Shown one piece after another: positions 1 to 61,077 of a stretch of DNA of 64,000 nt (its first letter is position 1; each line of letters starts with the position of its first letter). Origin of the DNA: a bacterium (lineage in GTDB: Bacteria > Myxococcota_A > UBA9160 > UBA4427). The notes below the pieces were generated by a model. That model worked only from the letters and a program-made list of their open reading frames with translations. It was not told the origin of the DNA and ran no database searches. A program made the position numbers and the translations under genes. Where the stretch lies: assembly GCA_024742285.1 (NCBI GenBank), contig JANSYR010000008.1, forward strand, positions 186,001 through 250,000, read 5' to 3'.

Positions 1-882
1 GCGGAAGTGGTGGATCGGTGTGGTCCAACGAATCACCTCCTCGATGGCGACTGGCAACCCGCCCGGCTCGCGGCGGAGGCGCGCCCATTGGTCCGGATGC
101 TCCGTGAAGGCGAGCATGCCGCCCGAGATCGCTGCCTTGGTCGTCTCGATCCCGGCCGTGATCAACAGCATGAAGAAGGACGCGAAGGCGTCGGCGTCCA
201 TCGTGTAGCCCTCGATCTCCGCCTGGAGGATCTTCGTCGCGACGTCGTCGCGCGGCTCCCGGCTTCGCGCCCGGCCCAGCTCGAGCGCGTACGAACCCAT
301 CTCGAGGATGGCCTCGACGTTCTCGCGATTGCCGTCGTCGCCGCCGAGCTCGGGATCGTCGAACCCCTGGATCCGATGGGCGAGCTCTCCCAGCCGCGGC
401 CGATCGTCTTCGGGGACCCCCATCATCTCCGTGATGATCCGGAGGGGCAGCTGACTCGCGACGTCCTCGACGAAATCGCAACGCCCCTTCTCGAGCGCGC
501 GGTCGAGCACGCCTGCGAAACAGCGCCGGGCGAAGGGCTCGAGATCGAGGACCCGCCTCGGCGTCATGCCTCGGCTCACGAGGGCGCGGAGCCGGGTGTG
601 TCGGGGCGGATCGATCTCGAGCATCGTCCGCGCGCGGCCGCTCGTCTCGAACGACTCGTCGTAGATCATGATGCCGCGGCGTTCGGAGGAGAAGGTCTCC
701 GAGTCACTGCTGACCGCGAGCACGTCCGCGTGCCGGGTCAGGGCCCAGAACCCCGTGCCGTCGGCCTCTTCGTTCCAATGGATCGGATGGTGTCGGCGGA
801 GATGTCGGAAGACGTCGTGGGGCGTGCCGTGGGCGAAGAGCTCGACGTCGGCGAGATCGATCGACTCGAGGGACGGGTCCAT
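1..882 (-). CDS. Cytochrome P450, C-terminus missing at window edge
   Basis: A haem-thiolate monooxygenase of the soluble bacterial type, probably hydroxylating a hydrophobic substrate with electrons from a ferredoxin partner. The minus strand is open for 294 codons from ATG at 882 to the left edge. It shows the C-helix region DPPRHTRLR (about 91-99), the I-helix oxygen-binding motif AGIETT (243-248) and the ExxR motif E282-R285. The haem-binding Cys region lies beyond the window. An in-frame ATG at 924 is possible, but the protein beginning MDPSLESIDL matches the usual P450 N-terminus better. The steroid/alkane hydroxylase-like character is inference. A second, complete P450 lies at 54000. 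Confidence 0.9.
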   Translation of the reverse strand, partial: MDPSLESIDLADVELFAHGTPHDVFRHLRRHHPIHWNEEADGTGFWALTRHADVLAVSSDSETFSSERRGIMIYDESFETSGRARTMLEIDPPRHTRLRALVSRGMTPRRVLDLEPFARRCFAGVLDRALEKGRCDFVEDVASQLPLRIITEMMGVPEDDRPRLGELAHRIQGFDDPELGGDDGNRENVEAILEMGSYALELGRARSREPRDDVATKILQAEIEGYTMDADAFASFFMLLITAGIETTKAAISGGMLAFTEHPDQWARLRREPGGLPVAIEEVIRWTTPIHHFR

Positions 883-2699: not shown

Positions 2700-4514
2700 T
2701 CACTTCTCCAGCTCGAGTCCCCCGAGATCGCCCTTCGCGTTCCACTCGGCCAGGATCTGCTTGAAGCCGAAGTAGTCGCCCATCCCGCCGCCGTAGTTCG
2801 AAGCGAGGGGCGGGACGCCCGCCGGGTCGCCTTCGTTGTTGATTCGCGAGGGCGGGCAGAGCTCCATGATCGCGCTGGCGTCGATTCGCGTGTCGAGGAT
2901 CTTCTGGCACCAGTCGGCCTCGGCCGCCTCGCTGACGTCGAAGACGGCGAGATCCCGCTCCTCCATCGACGCCACGATCTCGGCCGCCTGCGCCGCGAAC
3001 GCGGTCGTCGCGAGCGTGAAGTTCGCCGTGACCACTGCCTGTTGGAAGGGACAGGGCGAGATGAACATGTTGGGGAAGCCCCGACTCATCATGCCGAACA
3101 GGCTTTTCGGACCGTCGGCCCACTTGTCGGCGATCTCGACGCCGTTCCGGCCGACGATGACGTGACCCGCGCGGCGATAGAAAGGCGTGACCTCCCCTTC
3201 GAAGCCCGTCGCGTAGACGATGCAATCGACGGCGAACTCCTCGTCGTTCGCCCACAGGGCGTACTCGGTGATCCGCTCGATCCCGCCCGGACAGTCGACG
3301 AGCTCCACGTTCGGCGCGTTGAAGGCCGGGTAGTACTCGTCGTGCCAGAGCGGGCGCTTGCAGATGTAGCGGTAGTAGGGCTTCAGGATCTCGGCCTTCG
3401 CCGGATCGCCGACGATCTCGTCGATCCGCTCCCGGTGTTCCTCCATGACCCCGAAGTCGAAGGCCTCCGCCGCCTGTGCGTACTCTTCGTCGGTCCAGGC
3501 GGGGTCCCGCGGCGGGAACTGAACCGGCCCGAAGTGGTGCGTCCAGCCGTCGTCGACCAGGTCCTCGTCGACGGGCATACCCTGCAGGATCGCCTGGAAG
3601 TTCTCCATGCGTTCCTGCTGCCACCCCGGCCGACGACTCTCCTTGAATGCGTCGTCGGTCGGTCGGTTGTCTCGAACGCCGATGGCCGAAGGCGTCCGCT
3701 GGAAGACGAAGAGCTTCTTCGCGCTGTCGGCCAGGTGGGGAACGCACTGGACCGCGCTCGCGCCGGTTCCGACGACCGCGACGGTCTTGTCGGCGAGCCC
3801 GGTGAGTCCTCCGTGCAGGTCGCCCCCGGTGTAGTCGTAGTCCCACCGCGCAGTATGGAACGACGTGCCCTCGAAGGAGTCCATTCCCGGGATCGCCGGC
3901 ACCTTCATCAGGTTGAGGATCCCGACGGCCATGACCACGTACCTGGCGCTCAGCTGGTCGTCGTGATCCGTGTGCAGGCGCCAACGCCGCGCCTCTTCGT
4001 CCCATTCGGTCCGCTCGACGCGCGTGTGGAAGAGCGCGTCGTCGACGAGGTCGTACTTGTCGGCGATCGCCTGGAAATGCCCGCGGATCTCGTCGCCGAA
4101 CGAATATCGATGCTTCGGGACGTAGTCCATGTCCTCCAGCAGCGGCAGGTAGATGTAGGACTCGATGTCGCACATCAGTCCCGGGTAGCGGTTCCAGTAC
4201 CAGGTCCCGCCGATCCCGCCGGCCTCGTCGATGATCCGGATGCTTCGCACACCGCGCTTGCGGAGCTCGACGCCGGCGAGAACGCCCGCCAATCCGCCGC
4301 CCACGATCAAGACCTCGACTTCGTCGGAGACGGCGTCGCGATCCTGGTACGGGGTGAAGGGGTCGCGTCGATAGCGCGCCGAGGCGGCGTCGCCTCGGAG
4401 GTCCCGAAGCGCGGACCGCCGCTCGACGCCGAGCCGCTTGTCTCGTTCCTCCCCGTACTTCTCGCGCATCGAATCCGCGTTGCGTTCGCTCGGTGCGCCA
4501 CCGCGCTCCATCAT
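2700..4514 (-). CDS. Flavin-containing monooxygenase, Baeyer-Villiger type
   Basis: A 604-residue FAD/NADPH enzyme of the class B monooxygenases, which insert one oxygen atom next to a ketone or oxygenate a soft heteroatom. It has the FAD Rossmann motif VGGGLAG (71-77), the GGTWYWNRYPG segment (102-112), the class fingerprint FxGxxxHxxxWD as FEGTSFHTARWD (214-225), and the NADPH motif GTGASA (249-254). ATG 4514 follows GGAGGGATCGAG. A longer frame to 4616 lacks a ribosome site and has junk composition. It shares the N-terminal REKYxxERDKRL signature with the paralogues at 50262 and 52106. The substrate is unknown. Confidence 0.93.
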   Translation of the reverse strand: MMERGGAPSERNADSMREKYGEERDKRLGVERRSALRDLRGDAASARYRRDPFTPYQDRDAVSDEVEVLIVGGGLAGVLAGVELRKRGVRSIRIIDEAGGIGGTWYWNRYPGLMCDIESYIYLPLLEDMDYVPKHRYSFGDEIRGHFQAIADKYDLVDDALFHTRVERTEWDEEARRWRLHTDHDDQLSARYVVMAVGILNLMKVPAIPGMDSFEGTSFHTARWDYDYTGGDLHGGLTGLADKTVAVVGTGASAVQCVPHLADSAKKLFVFQRTPSAIGVRDNRPTDDAFKESRRPGWQQERMENFQAILQGMPVDEDLVDDGWTHHFGPVQFPPRDPAWTDEEYAQAAEAFDFGVMEEHRERIDEIVGDPAKAEILKPYYRYICKRPLWHDEYYPAFNAPNVELVDCPGGIERITEYALWANDEEFAVDCIVYATGFEGEVTPFYRRAGHVIVGRNGVEIADKWADGPKSLFGMMSRGFPNMFISPCPFQQAVVTANFTLATTAFAAQAAEIVASMEERDLAVFDVSEAAEADWCQKILDTRIDASAIMELCPPSRINNEGDPAGVPPLASNYGGGMGDYFGFKQILAEWNAKGDLGGLELEK

Positions 4515-17444: not shown

Positions 17445-18461
17445 TCAGACCGCCGTCAGTCCGTAGACCCGCATCGCGGTCCCGCGGAAGAGCGCTTCCT
17501 TCTCCTCGTCGCCGTAGCGACTCGCGATCTTCTTGAACGCGTTCCACAGCACCGGATAGGAGATCGAGAGCCGGTCGACCGGGAAGTTGCTCTCGAACAT
17601 GCAGCGGTCCGGCCCGAAGACGTCGATCGCCGTGTGGTAGTAGCGCTCCTGCGCCGCGACCAGCTCGTCCGACGTCGGGGGCCGCTCGCCCCGCTCGAAG
17701 CCGAAGCCCGACCACGGCATCGCCATCCCGCCGAGCTTCATGTGGACATTGCTGCAGTCGCGCAGCGTCTCGAGGCCGCTCTTCCAGACCTCGAACACTT
17801 CGTCTCTCCGCCCCTTGTACGGACCCGTACCGAGAGGCGTGCCGAGGTGGTCGAGCACCATCGTGGTCTCGGGGAAGGCCCGCGCGAGATCCGCATAGAA
17901 ATGGTTCTGCGTGTGGTAGTGGTAGCCGTCGAAGGAGAGGCCGAGCGGCGCGAGCTGGGCGAATCCCTCGCGGAACGCAGCGTCGCCGTAGAGGTTCGGC
18001 CCGGTGGCCCGCTCCGCGGTGTGGATGTCCTCGGACGCGTCGTAGATCGCGGCGTCGCGGATCCCCCGGAAGAGCGGCGAGGCTTCCTTGTGCGCCTCGA
18101 GCACCTCCCGGACCTTCTCGCCGAGGCAGAGGTTCGCCGTCCCCACGATGGCCCCGATGCGTGCTCTGCCGGCGGGCGCCCTCGCCGTCTCGGCGGCGAT
18201 CCCGGCGACCCACTCCGTCTCGCCCACGACGGCGAGGTCCTCCGACGTGCCCGGTCGATAGTGCTCCATGCACTCGATGAAGACCGTCTGCTCCACGTTG
18301 TGGCCGCGCGTATCGGACCAGAGCGCCTCGAGGTCGTAGCTCGGGAACATCTCCATCGTGTCGAAGAAGTGATGATGCGGATCGACGATGGGCCGATCGG
18401 GCTCGAGCACTTCCTCGGATACGGAAGCGAGCCATTCCTCACGAAAGACGATCTTCTCCAT
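17445..18461 (-). CDS. Amidohydrolase family 2 (metal-dependent hydrolase)
   Basis: A 338-residue TIM-barrel protein of the ACMSD/LigW-like amidohydrolases. The N-terminal metal motif is PIVDPHHHFFD (about 24-34). Further landmarks are AIVGTANLCLGEKVREVLEAHK, TTMVLDHLGTPLG and the closing FESNFPVDRLS, whose Asp is the last metal ligand. Members hydrolyse lactones or decarboxylate aromatic acids. ATG 18461 follows AGGATTGAAGG. It converges with the epoxide-hydrolase-like gene with 13 bp between stops. A lactonase role following BVMO chemistry is plausible but inferred. Confidence 0.88.
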   Translation of the reverse strand: MEKIVFREEWLASVSEEVLEPDRPIVDPHHHFFDTMEMFPSYDLEALWSDTRGHNVEQTVFIECMEHYRPGTSEDLAVVGETEWVAGIAAETARAPAGRARIGAIVGTANLCLGEKVREVLEAHKEASPLFRGIRDAAIYDASEDIHTAERATGPNLYGDAAFREGFAQLAPLGLSFDGYHYHTQNHFYADLARAFPETTMVLDHLGTPLGTGPYKGRRDEVFEVWKSGLETLRDCSNVHMKLGGMAMPWSGFGFERGERPPTSDELVAAQERYYHTAIDVFGPDRCMFESNFPVDRLSISYPVLWNAFKKIASRYGDEEKEALFRGTAMRVYGLTAV

Positions 18462-47735: not shown

Positions 47736-48737
47736 CTAGAAGTTGAATCGGACGTTCACGCCACCGAAGCCGGCATCGTCGTAGTCCGAGGACGACAAGC
47801 CGTTGCCGTTCTTGTCCTCGAGCCGGAACTGCCCGTCGGCCGTGACGCCGCCGTAGCCTTCGACGGTCACGGTGTCGGTCACGCGATAGCCGACCGTGAT
47901 CTTGGCCACGGTCGCTTCTTCCTCGCCGACGCCGTCTCGTCGGATGCCCGTGCCGGGCAGACCGCCGCGATCGCCGTTCAGGCGGAAGAGCTCGCGACGG
48001 ACGCCGATTCCGGCCGCCACCGTCATCCGGTCGAAGGCGTACTGGATGCGGAACTCACCGCCGCGCGAGGTATCGGCCTTGAGGCCGAGGGTCAGGCCAT
48101 CCGTGATCAGCCAGTTGAAGAGGACGAAGGGCTGGATGCGCGCGTCCTTCTCGATCTCGGTGAGCGCGAGGACGCCTACGGCGACCGTCAGACTCTCGCC
48201 CTTCCAGGCACCGGCGAGCGCACCGCCGCCGCGGAGGGCGTCGCCGAACTGTGCGCCGCCCTCTCCGGAGAACTCCCCGATCGGGGCCACGAGGATCGAC
48301 CAGCTCTCGTTCACGGCGAACGCGAAGGTCGGCATGACCCGGATCACGTGCACGGTGTTCCACGGGTCCGTGCTGTTCGCGCCGACGAAGGTGCCGCTGA
48401 AGTCGTAGCCCACGGCGCGGTACTGGGTCTTGATCGTCACGCCCACGTCGTCGGAGAGCTTCCGCGAGAGATCTACGCCGCCGGAAGCCATCCAGTAGCT
48501 GAAGTCGCCTCGTCGATCGAGCTTCGTCTCGCCCTGGTACTCGAAGCCCGTGCGAGCCTGAGTGCGCCACGCCGATTCCTCGGCGGGCCGCGTCGCTGCG
48601 GTCCCCGTCCAGTGGTCCTCGCCGTCGTCCGCGGCGGCGGCGGACATCGGCACCAGGAGGAGGGCCAAGAGCGCGACCGCAGCCGGGGCAGCACGCAGTC
48701 CCAGTCGTTCGATCGAGAGGACGTCGACGGTCTTCAT
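47736..48737 (-). CDS. Outer-membrane beta-barrel protein
   Basis: A 333-residue exported protein. The signal peptide ends VPMSAAAA, and the rest alternates hydrophobic and polar residues as in antiparallel barrel strands (VGVTIKTQYRAVGYDFSGTF, VTVEGYGGVTADGQFRLED). The last residue is an aromatic Phe in VNVRFNF, the signal for BAM insertion. ATG 48737 follows AGGAGCTCGCGAG; the open frame to 48959 has no ribosome site. It could be a porin or substrate channel, but no specific family was recognised. It is separated from the MscS gene by 34 bp. Confidence 0.82.
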   Translation of the reverse strand: MKTVDVLSIERLGLRAAPAAVALLALLLVPMSAAAADDGEDHWTGTAATRPAEESAWRTQARTGFEYQGETKLDRRGDFSYWMASGGVDLSRKLSDDVGVTIKTQYRAVGYDFSGTFVGANSTDPWNTVHVIRVMPTFAFAVNESWSILVAPIGEFSGEGGAQFGDALRGGGALAGAWKGESLTVAVGVLALTEIEKDARIQPFVLFNWLITDGLTLGLKADTSRGGEFRIQYAFDRMTVAAGIGVRRELFRLNGDRGGLPGTGIRRDGVGEEEATVAKITVGYRVTDTVTVEGYGGVTADGQFRLEDKNGNGLSSSDYDDAGFGGVNVRFNF

Positions 48738-49102
48738 CTCGCGAGCTCCTGGAGAAACTTCAGCGCGAGCCGGGCTCGCACTGCAGATTCTCTCGCTGCC
48801 CGTACGTCGAGCGCGATTCGGATCGACGGGCGGGCGATCATTGAGATTGCTCCGAGCTCGGCGCCTAAGGTCGCCTGCTCGAAGCCGGCCCGAATCTAAC
48901 CCAGTGAGATGCCGTCTGCCTCGACCGTCCTGGCCGCCACGCCCCGAAGAGTCGATCATGCTCGAGCAGTTCGAGCCACCCGCGCGTCGATCTCGCCCCG
49001 GCCGTCACCCGATCTCGGCGCCTCGCAGGCGACACGTAACCCGCATTGTCATACGTGCAAATGTGCGTTGCGCCTCGACCGGGCCCGGAGTAGCGTTTCG
49101 CC
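48738..49102. other. Divergent intergenic region with imperfect palindrome
   Basis: 365 bp between the outer-membrane protein gene (minus) and the tandem-MarR regulator (plus). The stretch near 49044-49063 is A/T-richer and carries an imperfect 20-bp palindrome, CATT-gtCA-tacg-TGca-AATG, where the outer four and two inner bases pair. It could be a MarR-type operator for autoregulation. No clear -35/-10 pair was assigned. GTTTCGCC before 49103 is not a good ribosome site. Confidence 0.35.
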
Positions 49103-50209
49103 ATGCCCCCGCCTCCCGCCGCCGATCCGCAGCGCTCTGCCGTCGATCTCGCCGCCACGGTCGAGCGCTATCGGCACAACTGGGTGGGCCACATCCACGA
49201 CCTCGGCGCCTCCCTCAGCCGCCGGACGATCGAGCGACTCGAGCGCGAGTGCGGCTATCCCCGGATCCGGCCGAGCCTCGGCCCTTTCATTTCCCTCGTG
49301 TGGCGCGAGCCGCGGCCGCTGACCGAGCTGGCGCAGCAGCTCGCGATCAGTCGCCAGGCGTGCAGCAAGATCGCTCGCCTCGCCGAGGACGACGGCTACG
49401 TCGAACGCGTCCTCGCCCAGAAGAACGACCGCGCGCAGTGCGTCCGGCTGACGAAGCGGGGACGCGATCTCGCCGAGGACAGCGTGCGTCTCATCTTCGA
49501 GGAGCAGACCACCTGGGAGGCTCGGATCGGCGCGGGCCGCTTGCGTCGCTTCAACGCGGCTTCGTCGGCGCTCTTCTTCACGCTCGGCCTCCAGGATCAG
49601 ACGGACGCCGGACTCGGCAAGGACGCGCGCCGATCGATCGGCGTCCTTCCCTTGATCGCCGACCACGTGGAGCTGGAGCTGCGAGAGCGGGTCCGCACAA
49701 TGGGTCACTCGGGCCTCCAGCTCTCCCACGCGCGCATCGTCGCGCTGGTAGGCGACGGTGCCCTGAGCGTCTCCGACATGGCGCGCCTCCAGGGCGTGAG
49801 CCGTCAGGCCACGGGCGTCACGGTCCGCAGCCTCGAATCGCGCGGATACGTGAAGCGCGGCACTCTCGAGTCCGACGGCCGAGCGATTCGCGTGCACCTG
49901 ACGGAGAAGGGGGAAGCCCTCGTCCGCGACACCGTCGCGACGCTCGAGGATCTGGAAGCAGAGTTCCGCGAGAAGCTCGGCACGCGCCGCTTCGCCGACT
50001 TCGTGAACCTGGCCGCTGAGCTCCATCACGCGCTGACCCTCGAGAGGGAACTCCTCGAAGCGCGCGCGTTCGAGGCCCCACCGCCCGACCCGGCCGAGCG
50101 CAACGGGCGAGCGCCGCGGGACCGCGAGCTCCGCGCGATTGCTTCGTTGCTCGAGGAGAAGCTCGGGACGAGCGCCGCGAGTCGCCTGGGCCGGATCCTG
50201 TGCAACTGA
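49103..50209 (+). CDS. Fused double MarR-family transcriptional regulator
   Basis: A 368-residue protein with two MarR-type winged helices in one chain. The first has helix-turn-helix LTELAQQLAISRQACSKIARLAEDDGYVERV (about 73-105) and wing DRAQCVRLTKRGRDLAEDS. The second has LSVSDMARLQGVSRQATGVTVRSLESRGYVKRG (about 222-255) and wing DGRAIRVHLTEKGEALV. MarR proteins normally dimerise, so this fusion may bind as a pseudo-dimer or as two dimers. A small-molecule ligand is expected, perhaps a substrate of the adjacent BVMO/P450 cluster. ATG 49103 is the first in frame. Confidence 0.87.
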   Translation: MPPPPAADPQRSAVDLAATVERYRHNWVGHIHDLGASLSRRTIERLERECGYPRIRPSLGPFISLVWREPRPLTELAQQLAISRQACSKIARLAEDDGYVERVLAQKNDRAQCVRLTKRGRDLAEDSVRLIFEEQTTWEARIGAGRLRRFNAASSALFFTLGLQDQTDAGLGKDARRSIGVLPLIADHVELELRERVRTMGHSGLQLSHARIVALVGDGALSVSDMARLQGVSRQATGVTVRSLESRGYVKRGTLESDGRAIRVHLTEKGEALVRDTVATLEDLEAEFREKLGTRRFADFVNLAAELHHALTLERELLEARAFEAPPPDPAERNGRAPRDRELRAIASLLEEKLGTSAASRLGRILCN

Positions 50210-50261
50210 CGGGCGCCACGCTGCGCCGGATCTTCGATCGATTCCGATCAGAGAGGAACGC

Positions 50262-52068
50262 ATGAGCGCCACGACGAGAGCGAGCGAGCTGCCCTTCGAC
50301 CCGGATGCCCTCCGCGAGAAGTACCGGATCGAGCGGGACAAGCGGATGCGACCGGACGGAATCGCCCAGTTCCAGGAGCTGACCGGCGAGTTCGCGAAAT
50401 TCCTCGACGACCCGCACGTCGACGAGATCATCGCCCGTGACCCGATCGAGGAAGAGCTCGACGTCGTCGTGATCGGCGGCGGCTTCAGCGGCCTGAGTGC
50501 CGGCGCGCAGCTCAAGAAGGCGGGGATCGACGACGTACGAATCGTCGAGGCCGGCGGCGACTTCGGCGGGACCTGGTACTGGAACCAGTACCCGGGCGTC
50601 CAGTGCGACATCGAGTCCTACATCTACCTGCCGATGCTCGAAGAGCTCGAGTACATGCCGACGCTCAAGTACAGCTACGGCCCCGAGATCCAGTCCCACG
50701 CCAGCCGGATCGGCCACCACTTCGACCTCTACGATCGCGCCCTCTTCCAGACCCGCGTGTCGAACCTCGACTGGAACACCGACACGAACCGCTGGACGGT
50801 CCGAACCGAGCGCGGCGACCGGCTCCACGCGCGCTTCGTCGTCGTCGCCCCCGGCCCCCTGGCCCGGCCGAAGCTCCCCGGCATTCCCGGCATCCAGGAG
50901 TTCGAAGGCCACATGTTCCACACCAGCCGGTGGGACTACGACTACACGGGCGGCGATACGACCGGCGGGCTCGACAAGCTCGGCGACAAGAAGGTCGGCG
51001 TGGTCGGAACCGGAGCGACGGCGATCCAGTGCATCCCCCACGTGGGCGAAGCCGCGGGCCACCTCTACGTCTTCCAGCGCACGCCCTCCTCCGTCGACGC
51101 GCGCAACAACCGACCGACGGATCCCGAGTGGTCCGCGCGCCTCGAGCCCGGCTGGCAGGACGAGCGGATCGCGAATTTCTCGACCTTCGTCTCCGGAACG
51201 CCCGTCGGCGAAGACCTCGTCGCGGACGGCTGGACCGACATCTTTCGCAAGGTCTCGGTCATGTTCTCGCGGGACGGTGCGGGGCTCTCGCCGGAAGAGG
51301 CCGAGCGGATGGTCGAGCTCGCGGACTTCGAGAATGATGGAGGAGATCCGCGCCCGGGTGGAGGAGATCGTCTCCGATTCCGAAACCGCCGAGTCGCTCA
51401 AGCCCTGGTATCGCCAGTTCTGCAAGCGCCCCTGCTTCCACGACGACTACCTCCAGACCTTCGACCGGGAGAACGTCACCCTCGTCGACACGGAAGGTCG
51501 CGGCGTCGAGCAGATCACCAGGGACGGCGTGATCGTCGGCGGCAAGGAGTACCCGCTCGACTGTCTGATCTTCGCGACCGGGTTCGAGGTCGGCACCGAC
51601 TATTCGCGCCGGGCCGCCATGGAGATCCGGGGCGCGACGGGCGAGACGCTGACCGACCACTGGAAGGAGGAGGTCACCACCTTCCACGGCCTCACGACCG
51701 ACGGCTTCCCCAACCTCTTCCTGATGGGCGGGCTGCAGTCCGGCGTGACGCCGAACTTCACCGAGCTCTACAACGAACAGAGCCGACACATCGCCTACAT
51801 CGCCCTGAAGACCCTCGGCCAGTCCGAGCAGGTCTTCGAAGCGACCCCGGAAGCCGTCGCCGGCTGGGTCCAGGCCGTGAAGGACTCCGCGTACTCGAAC
51901 TCCGATTTCGCCGAGACCTGCACGCCCGGCTACTACAACAACGAGGGCAAGCCCGGCGTCGGTCCGGGCTGGTTCGGGGGCAGCTACGGCGGGGGCGCAC
52001 AGGCCTTCTTCGCGCTCCTGCACGCGTGGCGGGCCAAGGGCGACCTCGAAGGCATCGACCAGCGCTGA
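50262..52068 (+). pseudogene. Baeyer-Villiger type monooxygenase, frameshifted
   Basis: A class B flavin monooxygenase of about 601 residues, read in two frames. The first frame (ATG 50262, after AGAGAGGAACGC) gives VIGGGFSG (70-77), FEGHMFHTSRWD (214-225) and GTGATA (249-254). At codon 358 the frame must move by one: GAGAAT GATGGAGG contains an extra T at 51335 relative to the paralogue, which reads GAG AAG ATG GAG. The second frame continues EEIRARVEEIVSD to the stop at 52068, with CTPGYYNNEGKPG conserved. Codon use is normal on both sides. A sequencing error, a young pseudogene or a programmed shift are all possible. Confidence 0.85.
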
Positions 52069-52105
52069 GCCGATCGCGGCCGGCCAGAGAGAACGGGTGG
52101 AACGT

Positions 52106-53959
52106 ATGGAGAACGAGAGTGCCGGCACGACCGGCGGTCCGGCACGGGCGAAGCCCCTCGCCTTCGACCCGGATCAGCTGCGCGCAAAATACGAGCAGGA
52201 GCGCGTCAAGCGGCTGCGCGAGGACGCCAACGACCAGTACCGCGAGCTCAAGGGCGATCTCTCGGGCTACCTCGAGGACTCCCACTCGGAGGAGAAGATC
52301 CCGCGCGCGCCGCTCCGCGACGAAGTCCAGGTCGCGATCATCGGCGGCGGCTTCGGCGGTCTCCTGACGGGCGCGCGCCTGCGCGAGGCCGGCGTCGAGG
52401 ACATCCGCTTCATCGATTCCGCCGGCGACTTCGGCGGAACCTGGTACTGGAATCGGTATCCGGGGATCGCCTGCGACATCGAGGCCTACATCTACATGCC
52501 GCTGCTCGAAGAGACCGGCTACATGCCCACCCAGAAGTACGCGACCGGGGCGGAGATCTTCGCGCACTGCCAGCGGATCGCGGGTCACTACGACCTCTAC
52601 CGCGACACCTGCTTCCAGACCCGCGTGACCGACCTCCGCTGGGACGACGACGCGGCGCGCTGGATCATCTCGACCGACCGCGGCGACGAGATGCGCGCCC
52701 ACTTCGTCTGCATGGCGCTCGGGGTGCTCAACCATCCGAAGCTGCCCGGCATCCCCGGAATCGAGGACTTCGAGGGCCACTCGTTCCACACCAGTCGCTG
52801 GGACTACGACTACACGGGTGGAAGCTCCGACGGCGGACTGGTGGGACTCCGCGGCAAGCGCGTCGGGATCATCGGAACCGGCGCGACCGCGGTCCAGTGC
52901 GTCCCCCACCTGGCCGAGTCGGCCGAGCACCTCTACGTGTTCCAGCGGACGCCGTCCTCGATCGACGTGAAGGACAATCCAAAGACGGATCCCGAGTGGG
53001 CGAAGAGCCTGAATCCCGGCTGGCACCAGGAGCGGATGGACAACTTCCAGGTCCTGACCCAGGGCGGCTTCCAGAAAGAAGACCTGGTCGCCGACAACTG
53101 GACCGAGATCATCCGCAAGTTCATCTCGACGACGCTCGCGGGCGACTCACCCGACCTGTCCCCGGAAGCGATCGAGAGGCAGATCGAGCTGACGGACTTC
53201 GAGAAGATGGAGCAGATCCGCGCCCGGGTGGACGAGGTCGTCGACGACCCGGCCATCGCCGAGGCGCTCAAGCCCTACTACCGACAGTTCTGCAAGCGGC
53301 CCTGCATCCACAACGACTACCTGCCGACCTTCAACCGCGACAACGTCACCCTCGTCGATACGGACGGCAAAGGCGTCGATCGCGTCACGAAGCGCGGTGT
53401 GCTCGTCGGCGACGAGGAGTACGAGATCGACTGCCTGATCTACGCCTCGGGCTTCGAGGTCGGGACGGACTACACGCGACGGGGTGGCTACGAGGTCCAT
53501 GGGCGGAACGGACGGACGCTGACGGAGCACTGGGCCGACGGCGCTCGAACACTCCACGGCATGCACTCCCACGGCTTCCCGAACTGCTTCTTCATCATGA
53601 GCATCGTCCAGTCCGGGTTTGCCGTGAACTTCACCCACGGCCTCGGGGACACGGCGAAGCACCTGGCCTTCATCATCTCCCGCGCCCTCGAGGAGGGAAT
53701 CGAAGCCGTCGAGGTCTCCGAGGAGGCCGAGGCCGGCTGGGTCGGACGCGTCCTCGAGCTCGCCGGCGCACGCGGCGACTTCATGCAGAGCTGCACCCCG
53801 GGCTACTACAACAACGAGGGCAAGCCCGGGGATGCGAGCCGCCAGAACAGCTACTTCTTCGGAGAACCCGGTGAGTTCATGCAGATCCTGAAGGACTGCC
53901 GCGCGAAAGGCGGCATGGCGGGGCTCGTGATCCGGCGCGGGGACGCGAAGGACGCTTGA
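52106..53959 (+). CDS. Flavin-containing monooxygenase, Baeyer-Villiger type
   Basis: A 617-residue class B flavin monooxygenase. It has IIGGGFGG (about 78-85), GGTWYWNRYPG, the fingerprint FEGHSFHTSRWD (about 222-233) and NADPH motif GTGATA. The C-terminal landmark CTPGYYNNEGKPG is shared with the upstream frameshifted paralogue, so the two arose by tandem duplication. ATG 52106 follows GGTGGAACGT; an in-frame GTG at 52097 is possible. It probably converts a cyclic or branched ketone into an ester or lactone. It is 38 bp after the paralogue and 40 bp before the P450 gene. Confidence 0.93.
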   Translation: MENESAGTTGGPARAKPLAFDPDQLRAKYEQERVKRLREDANDQYRELKGDLSGYLEDSHSEEKIPRAPLRDEVQVAIIGGGFGGLLTGARLREAGVEDIRFIDSAGDFGGTWYWNRYPGIACDIEAYIYMPLLEETGYMPTQKYATGAEIFAHCQRIAGHYDLYRDTCFQTRVTDLRWDDDAARWIISTDRGDEMRAHFVCMALGVLNHPKLPGIPGIEDFEGHSFHTSRWDYDYTGGSSDGGLVGLRGKRVGIIGTGATAVQCVPHLAESAEHLYVFQRTPSSIDVKDNPKTDPEWAKSLNPGWHQERMDNFQVLTQGGFQKEDLVADNWTEIIRKFISTTLAGDSPDLSPEAIERQIELTDFEKMEQIRARVDEVVDDPAIAEALKPYYRQFCKRPCIHNDYLPTFNRDNVTLVDTDGKGVDRVTKRGVLVGDEEYEIDCLIYASGFEVGTDYTRRGGYEVHGRNGRTLTEHWADGARTLHGMHSHGFPNCFFIMSIVQSGFAVNFTHGLGDTAKHLAFIISRALEEGIEAVEVSEEAEAGWVGRVLELAGARGDFMQSCTPGYYNNEGKPGDASRQNSYFFGEPGEFMQILKDCRAKGGMAGLVIRRGDAKDA

Positions 53960-53999
53960 ACGAGGGCGACCCCCTCGACGAATGATTGGAGGACGCGAT

Positions 54000-55250
54000 A
54001 TGGCGACGGCGGTCGATCTCGATCAGCTCGACTTCATCGAACCCGACGGCTACGTGGCCCGGGGCTATCCCCACGAGGTCTGGACGCGCATGCGCGCCGA
54101 GGCGCCGGTCTACTGGTTCGACCGGAGTCCGGGCCACGACTTCTGGGCGATCACGAAGCACGAAGACATCGTGTGGATCAGCAAGCGCCCGGAGCTCTTC
54201 ATCAGCGATCCGACCCTCGTCGTCCAGACGACCCCGCCGGAGGGCGACCAGGACCTGATCCCGAAGAACCTGATCCAGTTCGACCCGCCGAAGCACGGCA
54301 TCCAGCGGAAGCTGATCAGCAAGGGGTTCACGCCGCGGGCGCTCAAGCGCTTCCACGCCGACATCGAACGGATCGCCAAGGGCGTCGTCGACGACCTCTT
54401 CGAGGAGGGCGACGAGGGCGAGGCGGATTTCGTCGAACGGATCGCGGCGCCGCTGCCGATCGCCGTCATCGGCTGGCTGCTCGGCGTGCCCGAACCGGAC
54501 TGGCCGAAGCTCTTCCACTGGACGAACCGGATCCTCGGTTCCAGCGACGAGGAGTACGTCGACGAGGGCAAGTCCCAGGTCGAAACCGTCTTCGCCGCAC
54601 AGACGGAGCTCTTCGCCTACTTCTCGGACCTCGTGGCGAAGAAGAAGGCGGATCCCAAGGACGACCTCGTCACGCTCTTCGCCTTCGCGGAGGTCGAAGG
54701 CAAGAAGCTCTCCGACGTCGAGATCCTCGTCTGGTGCATGTTGATCGTCGCCGCAGGCAACGAGACGACCCGCAACGCGACGACCGGCGGCATGCTCGCC
54801 CTGATCGAGCATCCCGACCAGATGCGGCGCCTCCAGTCCGATCCGGGCCTGCTGAAGAGCGGGGTCGAGGAGATCCTGCGCTGGACCAGCCCGATCATCC
54901 ATTTCGCGCGCACGGCGACGGCGGACGTCGAGATCAAGGGCCGGCAGATCAAGGAGGGCGACACCCTCGCCCTCTTCTATCCCTCGGCGAATCGCGACGA
55001 GGAGATCTTCGAGGCGCCCTTCGAGTTCCGGGTGGACCGGAATCCGAACCGGCACCTGGCCTTCGGAATCGGCGAGCACTTCTGCGCCGGCGCCCACGTG
55101 GCGAGGCTCGAGATCGAGTACGCGCTCCGCTTCCTGCTCCCGAGGATCGAGGAAGTCGAGCTCGCCGGCCCGCCGGATCGCCTCCACTCCAACCTGGTCG
55201 GCGGCTTCAAGCGCCTGCCCATCCGCTACAAGCTGCGCGCGAGCGCATAG
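54000..55250 (+). CDS. Cytochrome P450
   Basis: A complete 416-residue P450: C-helix DPPKHGIQRKLISKGFTPR (95-113), I-helix AGNETTRN (252-259), ExxR E291-R294 in EILRW, and haem loop FGIGEHFCAG (355-364) with Cys362. It has no membrane anchor, so it is soluble and ferredoxin-dependent; no ferredoxin gene is adjacent. ATG 54000 follows GGAGGACGCG; an in-frame ATG at 53982 precedes the ribosome site. Working with the two BVMOs, it would hydroxylate the carbon skeleton before ketone formation and ring oxygenation (inference). Confidence 0.95.
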   Translation: MATAVDLDQLDFIEPDGYVARGYPHEVWTRMRAEAPVYWFDRSPGHDFWAITKHEDIVWISKRPELFISDPTLVVQTTPPEGDQDLIPKNLIQFDPPKHGIQRKLISKGFTPRALKRFHADIERIAKGVVDDLFEEGDEGEADFVERIAAPLPIAVIGWLLGVPEPDWPKLFHWTNRILGSSDEEYVDEGKSQVETVFAAQTELFAYFSDLVAKKKADPKDDLVTLFAFAEVEGKKLSDVEILVWCMLIVAAGNETTRNATTGGMLALIEHPDQMRRLQSDPGLLKSGVEEILRWTSPIIHFARTATADVEIKGRQIKEGDTLALFYPSANRDEEIFEAPFEFRVDRNPNRHLAFGIGEHFCAGAHVARLEIEYALRFLLPRIEEVELAGPPDRLHSNLVGGFKRLPIRYKLRASA

Positions 55251-55290
55251 CCCTTCCACGGACGAACCCTTCCAGAATCACGGAGACCCC

Positions 55291-56460
55291 ATGAGTCAGA
55301 GGCATTTCGAAAAGTACAAGGTGATCGACGTCGACACGCACATCACGGAGCCGCCCGGCGTCTGGACCGATCGCGTCGCCAGCAAGTGGGGCGACAAGAT
55401 TCCGCACATCAAGAAGGTCGAGGGCATGGACATGTGGTTCATCGGCGACGAACCCGCCGGCGGTCCCGGTTGGGTGACCATGGCCGGCCACACGGGCACG
55501 TTCCCCGACGTGCCCATGGGCTACGACGACATCCCGGCGGCGTCCTACGACGCCAAGGCCCGGCTCGCGCTCATGGACGAGGAGCACATCCACGCGATGG
55601 TCCTCTATCCCAATCTGGGCGGCTTCGGCTCGGGGGGCTTCCTCAAGCTCGGCGAGCCCGAATTGATGCTCGAGTGCGTGCAGGCGTACAACGACTTCCT
55701 GGTCGACTGGGCGAGCGCCGACCTGAACCGGCTCCTGCCGGTCATGGCCCTGCCCTTCTGGGACGTCGAGGCCTCGGTCGAGGAGATCGAACGCTCCGCC
55801 GCGAAGGGCCACCGCGCCGTCCTCTTCGGCAGCCGACCGGAGACCTTCGGCGAGCCCGTCCTCGCGCACAAGCACTGGGATCCGGTCTGGGCCGCGACGC
55901 GTGACGCGGGCCTCCCGATCAGCTTCCACATCGGCGGCGGCGACCTGAGCGACATCATGGAGGACAAGGCCGACATGGGGACGAAGGCGAACTTCGCCCG
56001 TGGCGGCTCCCTGGCGCTCCTCGACAACCAGAGCTGCCTGGCGAACCTTCTCTTCGGCGGCGTCTGCGCGCGCTTCCCGGACCTCGACTTCGTGTCGGTC
56101 GAGAGCGGCGTGGGCTGGCTCTCCTGCGTCCTCGAGATGTTCGACTGGCAGTGGACGAATGGCGACGTCGCCAAGGAGCATCCGGAATACGACCTGCTCC
56201 CGTCGGAGTACTTCGAGCGCCAGATCTACGGCTCGTTCTGGTTCGAGAAGAGGGAAATCGAATCCGCGGTCGCCAAGTTCCCGAAGAACCTGATGTGGGA
56301 AACCGACTACCCGCACCCGACCAGCCAGTACCCGAGCCCGAACAGCAGCGCGGTCCACCCGGCGGATTACGCCGAGGAAGCCCTCGGCGGAATCGACGAG
56401 TCGGTCGTGCGCGCGATCCTGCAGGACACGCCTGCACGGCTCTACAACGTGGAAATCTGA
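55291..56460 (+). CDS. Amidohydrolase family 2 (LigW/ACMSD-like)
   Basis: A 389-residue metal-dependent TIM-barrel protein. It opens VIDVDTHITEP, where D-x-H gives the first metal ligands, and ends with MWETDYPHPTSQYP, which has the final Asp ligand of the ACMSD/LigW-like group. ISFHIGGG in the middle supplies a further His. Enzymes of this group decarboxylate aromatic acids or hydrolyse C-C and lactone bonds. ATG 55291 follows GGAGACCCC. It lies 40 bp after the P450 gene and 10 bp before the cupin gene, so it likely acts on the BVMO product. Confidence 0.92.
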   Translation: MSQRHFEKYKVIDVDTHITEPPGVWTDRVASKWGDKIPHIKKVEGMDMWFIGDEPAGGPGWVTMAGHTGTFPDVPMGYDDIPAASYDAKARLALMDEEHIHAMVLYPNLGGFGSGGFLKLGEPELMLECVQAYNDFLVDWASADLNRLLPVMALPFWDVEASVEEIERSAAKGHRAVLFGSRPETFGEPVLAHKHWDPVWAATRDAGLPISFHIGGGDLSDIMEDKADMGTKANFARGGSLALLDNQSCLANLLFGGVCARFPDLDFVSVESGVGWLSCVLEMFDWQWTNGDVAKEHPEYDLLPSEYFERQIYGSFWFEKREIESAVAKFPKNLMWETDYPHPTSQYPSPNSSAVHPADYAEEALGGIDESVVRAILQDTPARLYNVEI

Positions 56461-56470
56461 GGAGAAGAAG

Positions 56471-56932
56471 ATGAGCACGGCCTATCAGTTCGACGGCGAC
56501 AAGATCGACTGGAACGAGATCGACGACCCGACCCAGGACTATCCCTGCAAGTACGAGATGGCCATCCTCGGCTCCGACGCCGAGACGGGCCGGCTCGACC
56601 TGATCGTGCGATGGCCCGCGAACTCGTACTGCCACTTCCATCGGCACGTCGCCGACACAGCGATCATGGTGCTGGAGGGAGAGCAGCACGTGATCGAGAT
56701 CCATGACGACGGCAGCGAGGGAGAACACAAGGTTCGTCCGGCCGGCACCTACGTGATGAGTCCCGGCGGCGAGGCCCACATGGAGTACGGCGGGCCCGAT
56801 GGCGCCGTCGTGTTCTTCTCCCTCTACGCGGGAGACGGTCCCGTCTTCGAGACCCTCGACAAGGACATGAAGGTGCTCGAAGCGTCGACCGTGGCGCAGA
56901 TGGCGGCTCAGCCGACGCTCGGCGAACGCTGA
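56471..56932 (+). CDS. Small cupin-domain protein
   Basis: A 153-residue single-domain cupin. The first cupin motif is present as YCHFHRHVADTAIMVLEGEQ, with metal-binding His residues, and the second as VRPAGTYVMSPGGEAHMEYGG, where a His is also placed to bind metal. The protein is small and acidic and is followed after 12 bp by the convergent MMPL gene. It may be an isomerase, a dioxygenase or a binding protein that ends the pathway begun by the P450 and BVMOs. ATG 56471 follows GAGGAGAAG. Confidence 0.88.
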   Translation: MSTAYQFDGDKIDWNEIDDPTQDYPCKYEMAILGSDAETGRLDLIVRWPANSYCHFHRHVADTAIMVLEGEQHVIEIHDDGSEGEHKVRPAGTYVMSPGGEAHMEYGGPDGAVVFFSLYAGDGPVFETLDKDMKVLEASTVAQMAAQPTLGER

Positions 56933-56944
56933 ACCGCGCTCGCC

Positions 56945-59371
56945 CTAGCGAGGCGTGGCTTCCGAAAGCGGGCCATGCGCCGTGGCGGTCGGCTCCCCGA
57001 TCGTCTCGGCGCCCCGCTGCCCTCTCGTCCACGCGAAGAGCGGGGGCAGGAAGACGACGTCGACCAGGAGCGCGAGGCCGATCGAGAGCGCGGTCAGCCC
57101 GCCGAACGCGACCAGATTCGACATCGACGAGAATCCGAACGTCGCGAACCCGAGACACAGCACGACCGAGCTGGTCAGGATCGCGCTTCCGGTCGTCTCG
57201 AGCCCCTCCGAGACGGCCCTTTCGAGATCGCCGTGCTCTTCCCAGCCCCGCCGGAAGGCGTGGCTCAGATGGACGGTGTCGTCGACGGCGAGGCCGAGCG
57301 CGATGCTGCCGATCAACATCGTGAAGAGATCGAGGTCGATCCCGAAGAAGCCCATCACGCCGAGGGTGATCGCGATCGGAAGCACGTTCGGCACCATGCT
57401 CGCGAGCCCGGCGCGCACGCTGCGCAGGAACGCGACCATGACGAGGGTCACCATCAGAACCGCCGTTCCGTAGCTCAGCACGAAGCCGCGCGAGATCGCC
57501 TCGACTGCCTCCGCGAAGAGGACGATCAGCCCGGTCGTCGAGACCGAGACCCCGCTCGGGAGCAGCCGCTCGAGCGCCGCCTCGACCTTCGGTATCAGCG
57601 CGAGGTAGTCCCGCCCCGAGCCCCAGGGCGCGCGAAGCGTGATGCGCGCGCTCGAGTAGTCGCTCGCCACGACGCGCTCGAGATCCTCGGCCCCGGTCGC
57701 CTCGAAGAGCAGGAGCTCCTGCGCGATCAGTCGCGCCTCGGAGGGCAGAGCGCCCTGCCCCGGCTCGCCCTCCGTCAGCGCGAGATGGATCTCACGCAAC
57801 ACGTCCACGAAAGACAGCGAGCGCTGGATCCGCGCTCCCTCGACCGCGGGGATCGCCGGAAGCACGCGTGCCATCTCGTCGAGCGCCGCCACGATCTCCG
57901 GCTGCCGCACGCCCCCGGCCACGCCGGCATCGACGAGGACCTCCATGCTCATCGTCCCGGAGAGCCGTTCGTCGAAGATCTCCGTCGCGATTCGGACGGG
58001 GTCGCCGGCCGGGAAGTAGGTGAGCGCGTCGTTCTCGGCGTCGACCCGGGACGCAGCGATCCCTGCGCCGACGAAGCAAGCCAGACCGGCCGCCGCGACG
58101 AGTCGCGGCGCGCGCAACGCGCGGAGTCCCAGTCGGGCGAGCGCCCGTCCGAGACGCAGGTGCACAGTCGCCGGCTCGCCCACTCGTGCCCGGATCGGCA
58201 GCAGCACGAGCGAAGCGGGAATCAGCACGAGGACGGCGATCAGGGTCGCCAACACGCCGACGGGGGCGACGGTCCCGAGCAGGGTCACCGGAGCCAGGTC
58301 GGTCGCGGCCGCGAACGAACCGAGGCCGAGCGCGGTCGTCAGGCTGGTCGCGACCAGCGCCGGCCCCGCGCGCTCGACGGATCGCGCGACCGCCTCGACG
58401 CGCGGCGTCCCCGCGTCGAGCTCCCGGTAGGCGATGACGAGCAGGTGGATGGCGGCGCTCGCGCCGACGGCCAGCAGGAAGGGCGGAAGGATCTGGATGG
58501 TCACGTTCAGGGTGACCCCCAGATGCCCGAGCAGGCCGAGGGTCGCGGCGATCGAGATCATCACGCTCGCGAGGGGCAGCACCACCGCAGATGCTCGGCG
58601 GAAGAGCAAGGCCAGGCAGGCGGCGATGGCCACCACGGCCAGCACGGTGAAGAGAAGCATGTCGCGAGCGAACGCGGCCGCCAGCCGCGCGTTCACCACC
58701 GGATTCCCGGCCAGGTGGTAGCCCCCTTCGGGCCAATGCCGCTCGGCCAGCGTCTCGACGCGCGCGACCACGCGACCCGACTCGAGGGCCGAGAGTGGCT
58801 GCAGCGTCGCGAGGTCGCGGTCGACGTAGGCGTCCAGGCTCACCGCGACGACGGTCAGCGTTCGGTCCCGGGAGAAGAGATGCCCCGGGTAGGCGCTGGT
58901 CTCGAAGAGTCTCGCGGCGAGCCGGTCCGATTCGCGCCCGTTCTGCGGGAGCGTCTTCCGCACTTCGCGCACGGACAGGACATCGTCGCGACCGGAGAGC
59001 AGACGCGCGCTCGCGAGGCTGCGCACCTCGTCCAGGTGCGGCAGGGTCGCTTCGAGATCGGCGTGGAAAGCGTCGAGTCGAGCCAGGAAGCCCGGCGCGA
59101 AGACGTCCTCTGCCTCGAGCAACACGAAGATCGCGGTGTCGAGTCCGTAGTCGCGCTTGAACGCCTCGTACCGGAGCCTGGACGGATGGTCCGGACCGAG
59201 GAAGCGCTCCGCGTGGGTCTCGAACCGGATCGACGGCAGGCCCGACGCGAGGACCACGAGACCGAGCAGCCCCGCGATCAGCGTTCGGACCGGGGCCCCG
59301 GCGACCCGATCCGCCCACGCGCGAAAGACGCGGGACCGCCCGGGCGGGCGCGACGCGGGCCCTTCCCTCAA
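56945..59371 (-). CDS. MMPL-type RND exporter
   Basis: An 808-residue inner-membrane transporter of the RND/MMPL type, with twelve predicted helices in two halves. TM1 (LIAGLLGLVVLASGLP) is followed by a periplasmic loop of about 200 residues, then a five-helix block with AVGASAAIHLLVIAY. The second half repeats this plan, with GLAVDDTVHLSHAFRRG carrying the Asp pair for proton use. The start is TTG 59371, whose last bases form the TGA of the sulfotransferase gene (TTGA overlap). Such exporters move lipids or hopanoids; the coupling to a sulfotransferase suggests a sulfated product (inference). Confidence 0.9.
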   Translation of the reverse strand: MREGPASRPPGRSRVFRAWADRVAGAPVRTLIAGLLGLVVLASGLPSIRFETHAERFLGPDHPSRLRYEAFKRDYGLDTAIFVLLEAEDVFAPGFLARLDAFHADLEATLPHLDEVRSLASARLLSGRDDVLSVREVRKTLPQNGRESDRLAARLFETSAYPGHLFSRDRTLTVVAVSLDAYVDRDLATLQPLSALESGRVVARVETLAERHWPEGGYHLAGNPVVNARLAAAFARDMLLFTVLAVVAIAACLALLFRRASAVVLPLASVMISIAATLGLLGHLGVTLNVTIQILPPFLLAVGASAAIHLLVIAYRELDAGTPRVEAVARSVERAGPALVATSLTTALGLGSFAAATDLAPVTLLGTVAPVGVLATLIAVLVLIPASLVLLPIRARVGEPATVHLRLGRALARLGLRALRAPRLVAAAGLACFVGAGIAASRVDAENDALTYFPAGDPVRIATEIFDERLSGTMSMEVLVDAGVAGGVRQPEIVAALDEMARVLPAIPAVEGARIQRSLSFVDVLREIHLALTEGEPGQGALPSEARLIAQELLLFEATGAEDLERVVASDYSSARITLRAPWGSGRDYLALIPKVEAALERLLPSGVSVSTTGLIVLFAEAVEAISRGFVLSYGTAVLMVTLVMVAFLRSVRAGLASMVPNVLPIAITLGVMGFFGIDLDLFTMLIGSIALGLAVDDTVHLSHAFRRGWEEHGDLERAVSEGLETTGSAILTSSVVLCLGFATFGFSSMSNLVAFGGLTALSIGLALLVDVVFLPPLFAWTRGQRGAETIGEPTATAHGPLSEATPR

Positions 59372-60120
59372 GGGCCGACGAGCGTCCAGCCGAGCACGAT
59401 GCTCGCGGCCGCGCCGACGACCCAGGCCGCCTTGATCCGGGCCGGCGTCGTGTCCACCCAGTAGCGGAAGAGCCTGGAGCTCAGACTCCCCTTCGACTCG
59501 TTCAGGTGCGGGAAGGGCTCGTCGGGGATCTCGACGCCGAGGAACTCACAGAGCGGTGCCCAACCGTCGCGAACGTCGAAGACGAGAAGTCGCTCCGCGG
59601 GCACCCGGTCGCGAACGGCCTGGTTGTGCCGCTCGTAGACTTCGATGTTCGAGGCCTTCTCGATCCCGCCGCCCATCACGGTGCCGGTCACGAGGAGGTC
59701 GGTGATGTCCATCGCTCTGCGCACGCGGGGCGAGAAGCGGGCGAAGGGGCGGATGAAACGGAAGGCGTCGTTGAGGCGCTTCCAGGATCGGAACCACCCT
59801 TCGGCGTCGCGCACCGTCAGGACCACCTTGGCGTCCGGGAACGCTTCGAGCAGCTCCTCGTAGTAGAGGCAGGTCGGGAGGTCGATGCACGAGGCGTAGC
59901 GGGCGAAGAGCCGACCCCAGTCGAGTCGATGGGGCTGACCGGCGTGGCGGGCGCGCGCATGCTCGCTCCACAGCTGCAGGTGGCCTTCGCTGTGGCCACG
60001 TCGCGGCGTGAGGATCTCGCGCATGTGATAGCAGGGACCGAAGCCCAGCTTCTCGAAGGCGGCCTTCGTACTGACGGTCCCCGTCCGAGCGAATCCCGCG
60101 CCGATGATCTTGAGACTCAT
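59368..60120 (-). CDS. Sulfotransferase family protein, membrane-anchored
   Basis: A 250-residue sulfotransferase-like protein of the Sulfotransfer_4 type. The PAPS-binding loop is GAGFARTGTVSTKAAFEKLG near the N-terminus. Other landmarks are PDAKVVLTVRDAEGWFRSWKRL, with the conserved Arg-Asp, and LLVFDVRDGWAPLCEFLGVEIPDEPFPHLN. A C-terminal membrane helix (AAWVVGAAASIVLGWTLVG) anchors it, with the active site on the cytoplasmic side. ATG 60120 begins MSLKIIG. It overlaps the downstream MMPL exporter by four bases, so the two products probably act on the same molecule. Confidence 0.9.
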   Translation of the reverse strand: MSLKIIGAGFARTGTVSTKAAFEKLGFGPCYHMREILTPRRGHSEGHLQLWSEHARARHAGQPHRLDWGRLFARYASCIDLPTCLYYEELLEAFPDAKVVLTVRDAEGWFRSWKRLNDAFRFIRPFARFSPRVRRAMDITDLLVTGTVMGGGIEKASNIEVYERHNQAVRDRVPAERLLVFDVRDGWAPLCEFLGVEIPDEPFPHLNESKGSLSSRLFRYWVDTTPARIKAAWVVGAAASIVLGWTLVGP

Positions 60121-60330: not shown

Positions 60331-61077
60331 TCATCGGCGTGGGGAAACCCACTTGTGTCGCGACGGCCGCAACTCCTCCCCCGGCAGGTCGAAGAGCAGG
60401 AGCTCTGCGCTCTCCACCGCTTCGATCTCGAGTCGATCGACTTCTTCGATGGCAAAGCCATCCCCGGCCTCGAAGTCGATCCCGTCGACGCGGCCGGTGC
60501 CGCGCGCGACCTGGATCCATCCGCGCCGTCGCCCGCCCAACGGCCAGACGAAGGACTGGCCCTCGTCCAGGACGAGCGCGGACACGATCGCGTCCTGACG
60601 GAGCGGAAGCCCGCCCGTCGACGCCCCCGACGCACCCGAAGAAGCCAGCACGGTCGGGACCCCGGGGGCGAGCGCGAAGTCGATCATCTCGTGGCCCGGT
60701 GCGGTGCCCCGGGTGTCGGGCTCGATCCAGATCTGCAGCAAGTGGACCGGATCGTCCCCGAGATTCATCTCGGCATGGGCGATCCCGGTCCCGGCATGCA
60801 TGAGCTGCGACCGGCGCGGGCGGATCTGGGCCTCGTTCTCTTCGCTGTCGAGATGGCTGAGCGTGCCCGAGAGCACGTAGGTCAGGATCTCCATCTCGCG
60901 ATGCGGATGGGCGGGGAACCCCGAGCGCGGGGCGATCCAGTCCTCGTTGATCACCCGCAGCGGGCCGAAGCCCAGGATCGCGGGGTCGTGGTGATGTCCG
61001 AACGAGAAGCTGTGGCGACTGTCGAGCCAGTCGAGCTCGGTCCGGAATCGATGGTCGGCCTTCCTCTTGTCGATCAT
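60331..61077 (-). CDS. Pirin-family protein
   Basis: A 248-residue bicupin protein of the short YhaK/YhhW-like pirin type. The opening TELDWLDSRHSFSFGHHHDP, metal site HPHREMEILTYVLSGTLSHLDS and motif QLMHAGTGIAHAEMN are clear. Some bacterial pirins have quercetinase activity; others sense redox state. ATG 61077 matches the family's usual N-terminus. An in-frame ATG at 61164, with AAAGGAACC before it, would add 29 residues of poor conservation. The region between these starts holds a strong hairpin, and a 25-bp palindrome lies just upstream. It is downstream of the CBS gene on the same strand. Confidence 0.88.
   Translation of the reverse strand: MIDKRKADHRFRTELDWLDSRHSFSFGHHHDPAILGFGPLRVINEDWIAPRSGFPAHPHREMEILTYVLSGTLSHLDSEENEAQIRPRRSQLMHAGTGIAHAEMNLGDDPVHLLQIWIEPDTRGTAPGHEMIDFALAPGVPTVLASSGASGASTGGLPLRQDAIVSALVLDEGQSFVWPLGGRRRGWIQVARGTGRVDGIDFEAGDGFAIEEVDRLEIEAVESAELLLFDLPGEELRPSRHKWVSPRR

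Follow-up and report, generated by a model that had tools for sequence, protein, structure and literature searches.

A conserved oxygenase gene cluster behind a double-MarR regulator in a Myxococcota-type bacterium, with a possible role in oxidative attack on alicyclic ketones

The window analysed here is a 64,000-nucleotide stretch of contig JANSYR010000008.1 (assembly GCA_024742285.1; contig C8 of source genome G000, which comprises 6.5 Mb in 56 contigs) from a bacterium of the Myxococcota_A lineage. Within it, a run of six genes occupies positions 49103-56932 of the forward strand, with intergenic gaps of 52, 37, 22, 40 and 10 bp. The run consists of a regulator with two fused MarR domains (MarR2), two type I Baeyer-Villiger monooxygenases (BVMO1 and BVMO2), a cytochrome P450 (P450), an Amidohydro_2 protein (amidohydrolase-like, amh) and a small cupin (Table 1). 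An original prediction made from the DNA letters had listed the same genes, and they prove to be real, correctly placed and closely spaced on one strand, with the exception that BVMO1 is not intact. The cluster therefore holds four intact enzyme genes and one that is interrupted. Genomes used for comparison are referred to by G-numbers, and loci fetched from them by L-numbers.

The cluster is a conserved unit. Its full order, MarR2-BVMO1-BVMO2-P450-amidohydrolase-cupin, recurs in a genome of the same genus (G004), where the identities in gene order are 68, 88, 68, 89, 87 and 90%. Partial arrangements include MarR2-cupin-BVMO2 in G025 and BVMO-cupin-amh in G053, while G021 carries a longer run of P450-BVMO-DUF3556-FAD (flavin adenine dinucleotide) oxidoreductase-alcohol dehydrogenase-cupin-amh-SRPBCC-ChsH2-like-thiolase-like genes. 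BVMO-cupin pairs are present in several further families of the same order, and partial forms occur in other genera as well. The genomes covered by both the cupin and the BVMO searches gave 44 cupin matches, 12 of which have a BVMO of the cluster's family within 5 kb; a simple random-position model predicts 0.2. Kinship among the genomes makes this statistic look more precise than it is. Together, the recurrence of the six-gene order in G004 and this linkage indicate that the cluster is not a product of chance. The proposal that the genes form a system thus stands, as the order is kept in full in one other genome and in part elsewhere.

Table 1. Positions of the cluster's genes and upstream region in the window, with the basis of each assignment
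Feature	Position	Strand	Basis
Promoter/operator-like region	49046..49102	+	Same block in three genomes; promoter elements putative
Regulator, two fused MarR domains, 368 amino acids (aa)	49103..50209	+	Pfam MarR_2, two stretches
BVMO1, PtlE-like type I BVMO, 1-bp insertion near 51333	50262..52068	+	G004 orthologue an intact 600-aa frame
BVMO2, intact PtlE-like type I BVMO, 617 aa	52106..53959	+	PtlE model, PDB BVMO matches
Cytochrome P450, CYP125/CYP124-like	53982..55250 (alternative start 54000)	+	Pfam, PDB matches
Amidohydro_2 protein, PtmU3/DitZ branch, candidate dinuclear oxygenase	55291..56460	+	Pfam, sequence, fold
ChrR-type cupin, 153 aa, candidate three-His non-heme dioxygenase	56471..56932	+	Pfam, invariant residues

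Translations of both BVMOs contain the type I fingerprint FxGxxxHxxxWD (FEGHSFHTSRWD in BVMO2 and FEGHMFHTSRWD in BVMO1) together with two glycine-rich nucleotide-binding motifs, and both are matched by BVMOs of the PDB. Both BVMOs score best with the PtlE (pentalenolactone D synthase) model, which BVMO2 matches over its full length with 834 bits, and the intact BVMO1 of G004 scores 773 bits. The PDB entry 5mq6, a polycyclic ketone monooxygenase, is matched by BVMO2 with 449 bits, and orthologues of BVMO2 are found in G025 (83%) and G006 (80%). Both members of the predicted pair are therefore present with the expected fingerprint, and BVMO2 is intact, but BVMO1 is frameshifted by a single extra T at about 51333 (gagaaTgatgg versus gagaa-gatgg in the intact G004 orthologue). 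A programmed frameshift was considered and rejected, since no frame change interrupts the G004 orthologue.

Disruption of the tandem BVMOs is reciprocal. In G004 it is BVMO2 (L085 7560-8640) that has decayed, with a loss of ~271 codons that include the nucleotide-binding region, and a frameshift further on. In a codon analysis, the ratio of non-synonymous to synonymous substitution rates (dN/dS) was 0.12-0.20 for the parts on both sides of the BVMO1 break and for BVMO2, the P450, the amidohydrolase-like protein and the cupin, 0.25 for the regulator and 0.30 for the first part of what is left of BVMO2 in G004. As both parts of BVMO1 resemble the intact enzyme genes in this respect, the break is either recent or a sequence error. 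That it is an error of sequence or assembly, with both BVMOs working in the organism, is a serious possibility that falls only somewhat short of an even chance. Consistent with it are the absence from BVMO1 of any stop other than that at the frameshift, the low dN/dS values and the division of the assembly into 56 contigs; however, the extra T does not lie within a homopolymer run, and the decay of BVMO2 in G004 indicates that one of the two BVMOs can genuinely be lost here.

Other BVMO genes were also encountered. The window contains a further PtlE-like BVMO at 2700-4469 (-), which is 47% identical to BVMO2, scores 666 bits with the PtlE model and lies beside a gene at 1-882 (-) that runs off the edge of the window and has a weak P450 match. 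The closest annotated plasmid-borne relatives are a Streptomyces record named pentalenolactone D synthase and Sphingobium plasmid monooxygenases with no stated function. These were set aside as a guide to substrate, since the two Sphingobium regions share no neighbourhood with the cluster.

The P450 finds its best PDB matches in CYP125 and CYP124, with the mycobacterial forms of the two scoring alike, and shares 47% identity with a reconstructed ancestor of CYP125.

The Amidohydro_2 protein is closest to PtmU3 and DitZ among PDB sequences. Its predicted structure (mean predicted local distance difference test score, pLDDT, of 92.5) likewise has its best fold matches in DitZ (E 2e-24) and PtmU3 (5e-21), with the single-metal ACMSD ranking behind. 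DitZ, judging from its name alone, presumably acts in diterpenoid degradation. The six metal ligands of AibH2 (D25, H27, H211, E265, D337 and H340, in the pattern D-x-H, H, E, D-x2-H; PMC7782822, PMC10401708) map to D15, H17, H213, E271, D339 and H342 of the window protein, none of which varies among the aligned homologues. PtmU3 accepts diterpenoids linked to coenzyme A (CoA), which it hydroxylates at a non-heme diiron site (PMC7782822), and AibH2, from the same superfamily, is a hydroxylase with a Mn/Fe site (PMC7782822, PMC10401708, PMC10811679). Two positions beyond the last ligand His, an acidic residue has been reported only for binuclear members (AibH2 D342, PtmU3 E313; PMC7782822). The window protein has Thr at this position, two after H342; Thr, Val or Ile occupies it across the protein's clade, and Asp in several more distant relatives. 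This Thr-bearing clade has 98/99 support and adjoins the DitZ branch, with long branches leaving the deeper order unsure.

Based on its sequence and predicted structure, the protein probably works in the manner of PtmU3/DitZ-type oxygenases. That it belongs to the amidohydrolase-related dinuclear oxygenase (ARO) group (AibH2, PtmU3, SfbO) is likely, but it is not filed there because the acidic marker is replaced. The original prediction had assigned metal-dependent cleavage to this gene, a step from which the nearest relatives in sequence and fold and the six-ligand dinuclear set of the oxygenase branch point away, so that hydrolysis should not be assumed by default. An alternative in which the protein does act as a metal hydrolase and opens a lactone or ester produced by a BVMO, in the order P450, BVMO and hydrolase, is considered unlikely. 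It would fit the operon shared with BVMOs, the Pfam assignment, the hydrolases and decarboxylases that the superfamily also holds (PMC10811679), the missing acidic residue of binuclear members and the fold match to ACMSD, but would not explain why DitZ and PtmU3 are nearest on both counts or why the complete dinuclear ligand set is invariant.

Two close copies of this gene (89% and 82%) occur in the same genome in other surroundings, at L078 9301-10467 (C1) and L079 10017-11183 (C2), one of them beside TetR-like, DUF3556-like and dimethylformamidase-like proteins. Another Amidohydro_2 protein is encoded within the window at 17445-18461 (-).

In the cupin, residues C54, H57, H59, T63, E71, H103 and E105 are invariant. 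Of these, H57, H59 and H103, conserved in all of 17 homologues, form a pattern of three candidate metal ligands, with Thr at 63 near the place of the canonical Glu. A comparable arrangement is known from Dke1, a 153-aa single cupin with three His ligands in the form of HxH plus a distal His (PMC4019311). The top Foldseek match is a putative acetylacetone dioxygenase, and is weak and drawn from a poor model (pLDDT 54). There is thus weak evidence, chiefly from ligand pattern, that the cupin could be a three-His dioxygenase like the diketone dioxygenase. A pirin/quercetinase-like bicupin is encoded elsewhere in the window, at 60331-61077 (-).

The regulator contains the MarR_2 winged-helix domain twice in a single chain, and the fused form recurs in relatives, including orthologues in G004 (69% in this comparison) and G025 (63%) and more distant family members elsewhere. 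The prediction of a fused MarR regulator at the head of the cluster is therefore correct with respect to the domains, but the regulator is not peculiar to this locus, since double-MarR proteins are a family in these genomes. In 15 extra loci (among L172-L187), the double-MarR regulator adjoins a conserved gene of ~240 aa whose product carries HxxHH motifs; the single member scanned matched Pfam FA_hydroxylase. In about half of the extra loci, a gene of the BVMO or flavin-containing monooxygenase type lies nearby.

Upstream of the regulator is the block ATTGTCA-N4-TGCAAA-N5-GTTGCG, with its core at 49056-49071. The window, G004 (L085) and G025 (L150) have in common GTAACCC, followed by ATTGTCA or ATTGACA and then by TGCAAA-N5-GTTGCG. 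The exact core TGCAAAN5GTTGC occurs only once in the 6.5 Mb genome, at this site, and matches to the operator with a single mismatch elsewhere in the genome are no commoner than those of a reversed control. A putative -35 element (TTGCGC, 49068-49073) that overlaps the last half-site and a putative -10 element (TAGCGT, 49091-49096) that ends six bases before the ATG are plausible from the letters, and given the latter spacing the transcripts could be leaderless.

A convergent MMPL/RND-type transporter gene (56945-59371, -), whose product matches sterol-sensing and Patched domains, follows the cluster, and beyond it lies a sulfotransferase gene (59368-60120, -). The transporter gene is not found after the G004 cluster, but an MMPL gene stands upstream of that of G025 (L150). 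An outer-membrane gene upstream (47736-48737) was considered as a conserved part of the cluster and rejected, since its protein gave no match in the related loci examined.

Genes located near BVMO-cupin pairs in related genomes encode P450s, short-chain dehydrogenases, thiolase/ChsH2-like proteins, SnoaL proteins, TetR regulators, acyl-CoA dehydrogenases and a CoA transferase. The CoA-type genes among these neighbours favour catabolism through CoA intermediates, and the catabolic setting first proposed agrees with this context. A biosynthetic cluster that tailors a terpenoid natural product, in the manner of PtlE in pentalenolactone or PtmU3 in platensimycin and platencin, appears improbable. 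The nearest characterised models and structures of the BVMOs (PtlE) and the amidohydrolase-like protein (PtmU3) do come from terpenoid biosynthesis, and P450s are common in clusters of that kind; however, a Pfam scan of the cluster and the genes next to it showed no terpene cyclase, relatives have these genes close to those for acyl-CoA dehydrogenases, thiolase/ChsH2 and CoA transferase, and DitZ would by its name belong to diterpenoid degradation. That unrelated oxidative genes simply lie near each other, with no common pathway, is very improbable: each family is numerous in these genomes and its members are often apart (there are seven PtlE-like BVMO matches in the source genome), but the whole order is kept in G004, the cupin-BVMO linkage is far above chance and the upstream block is conserved.

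The reading preferred here, to which about even confidence is attached, is that the cluster is a conserved, autoregulated operon whose enzymes oxidise a polycyclic alicyclic ketone, with a terpenoid or sterol-type molecule as the likeliest candidate; the substrate and the order of steps are inferred. The double-MarR protein would repress its own promoter at the conserved operator until released by a ligand from the pathway. The CYP125/124-like P450 would then hydroxylate an unactivated carbon, and a BVMO would insert oxygen beside a ring ketone to yield a lactone or ester. Here, BVMO1 and BVMO2 may be interchangeable enough to allow for loss of each in one lineage. The PtmU3/DitZ-type protein, as a dinuclear metal oxygenase rather than a hydrolase, would carry out a hydroxylation, perhaps on the CoA thioester of the molecule, as PtmU3 does. 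Finally, the cupin, as a three-His non-heme iron dioxygenase, would break a C-C bond in a diketone or hydroxyketone. Genes elsewhere in the genome would supply the electron donors, an alcohol dehydrogenase, a lactone hydrolase and the CoA chemistry.

Several observations weigh against this scheme. The BVMO scores (834 bits for BVMO2 and 773 for the G004 BVMO1) fall short of the 1100 bits required of a PtlE equivalog, and the substrate of PtlE cannot be assumed as a result. In many genomes the amidohydrolase-like family is located away from BVMO and cupin genes, being near a cupin in 5 of 50 cases and near a BVMO in 7 of 50. In addition to the Thr described above, a motif scan of the genes flanking 32 clade members revealed no Rieske protein of <250 aa, whereas a small Rieske protein co-occurs with 90% of AibH2-like proteins (PMC10401708). 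The poorly modelled cupin has no sequence match to Dke1 or to any PDB dioxygenase. Lastly, since redox partners, a dehydrogenase, a lactone hydrolase and CoA enzymes are absent from the cluster, it is not a complete pathway.

No description of this gene combination was found in the literature searched (open-licence papers only), and searches on fused MarR regulators, BVMO clusters in Myxococcota and the function of DitZ gave nothing useful. A bolder proposal, put forward tentatively and regarded as rather doubtful, is that the Thr-bearing clade constitutes a separate class of dinuclear metal oxygenase that has lost the acidic second-shell residue considered important in its relatives. Together with the PtlE-like BVMO, the CYP125-like P450 and the three-His cupin, it would make up a previously undescribed, all-oxygenase ring-opening route for sterol- or terpenoid-type ketones, controlled by a double-MarR switch with a compound operator. 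If the preferred reading is right, uncultured, mostly marine Myxococcota-type bacteria would possess a conserved and testable four-oxygenase module with no counterpart among the pathways of the literature searched, and its significance would be independent of the exact substrate. A large clade of "amidohydrolases" would probably also prove to be misnamed oxygenases, and might reveal if O2 chemistry requires an acidic residue in the second shell.

The components can be compared with several known systems. The regulator resembles MarR repressors of the HpaR/BilQ type in its domains, its position upstream of a catabolic-type operon and its conserved, inverted-repeat-like operator, but differs in having two MarR domains in one chain and scores far below the curated cut-offs. 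The BVMOs match PtlE (neopentalenolactone/pentalenolactone D synthase) over their full length and also match 5mq6; these are BVMOs with an N-terminal extension. They differ from PtlE in forming a tandem pair with one member broken, in scoring below the equivalog level and in having no terpene cyclase seen nearby. The cupin is like Dke1, the diketone (acetylacetone) dioxygenase, in its length of 153 aa and in three His without the usual Glu; sequence similarity is lacking, and the fold match is weak and from a low-confidence model. The P450 is closest to CYP125 and CYP124, hydroxylases of sterols (at C26) and of methyl-branched lipids, but its neighbours are BVMOs and a cupin and not the genes of a cholesterol side-chain operon. 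The amidohydrolase-like protein has its best sequence and fold matches in PtmU3 of platensimycin/platencin biosynthesis and DitZ of Rhodococcus rhodochrous, with the same six ligands, and is set apart from both by Thr in place of the acidic residue, by neighbourhoods scanned that contain no Rieske partner and by its membership in a separate, well-supported clade (98/99).

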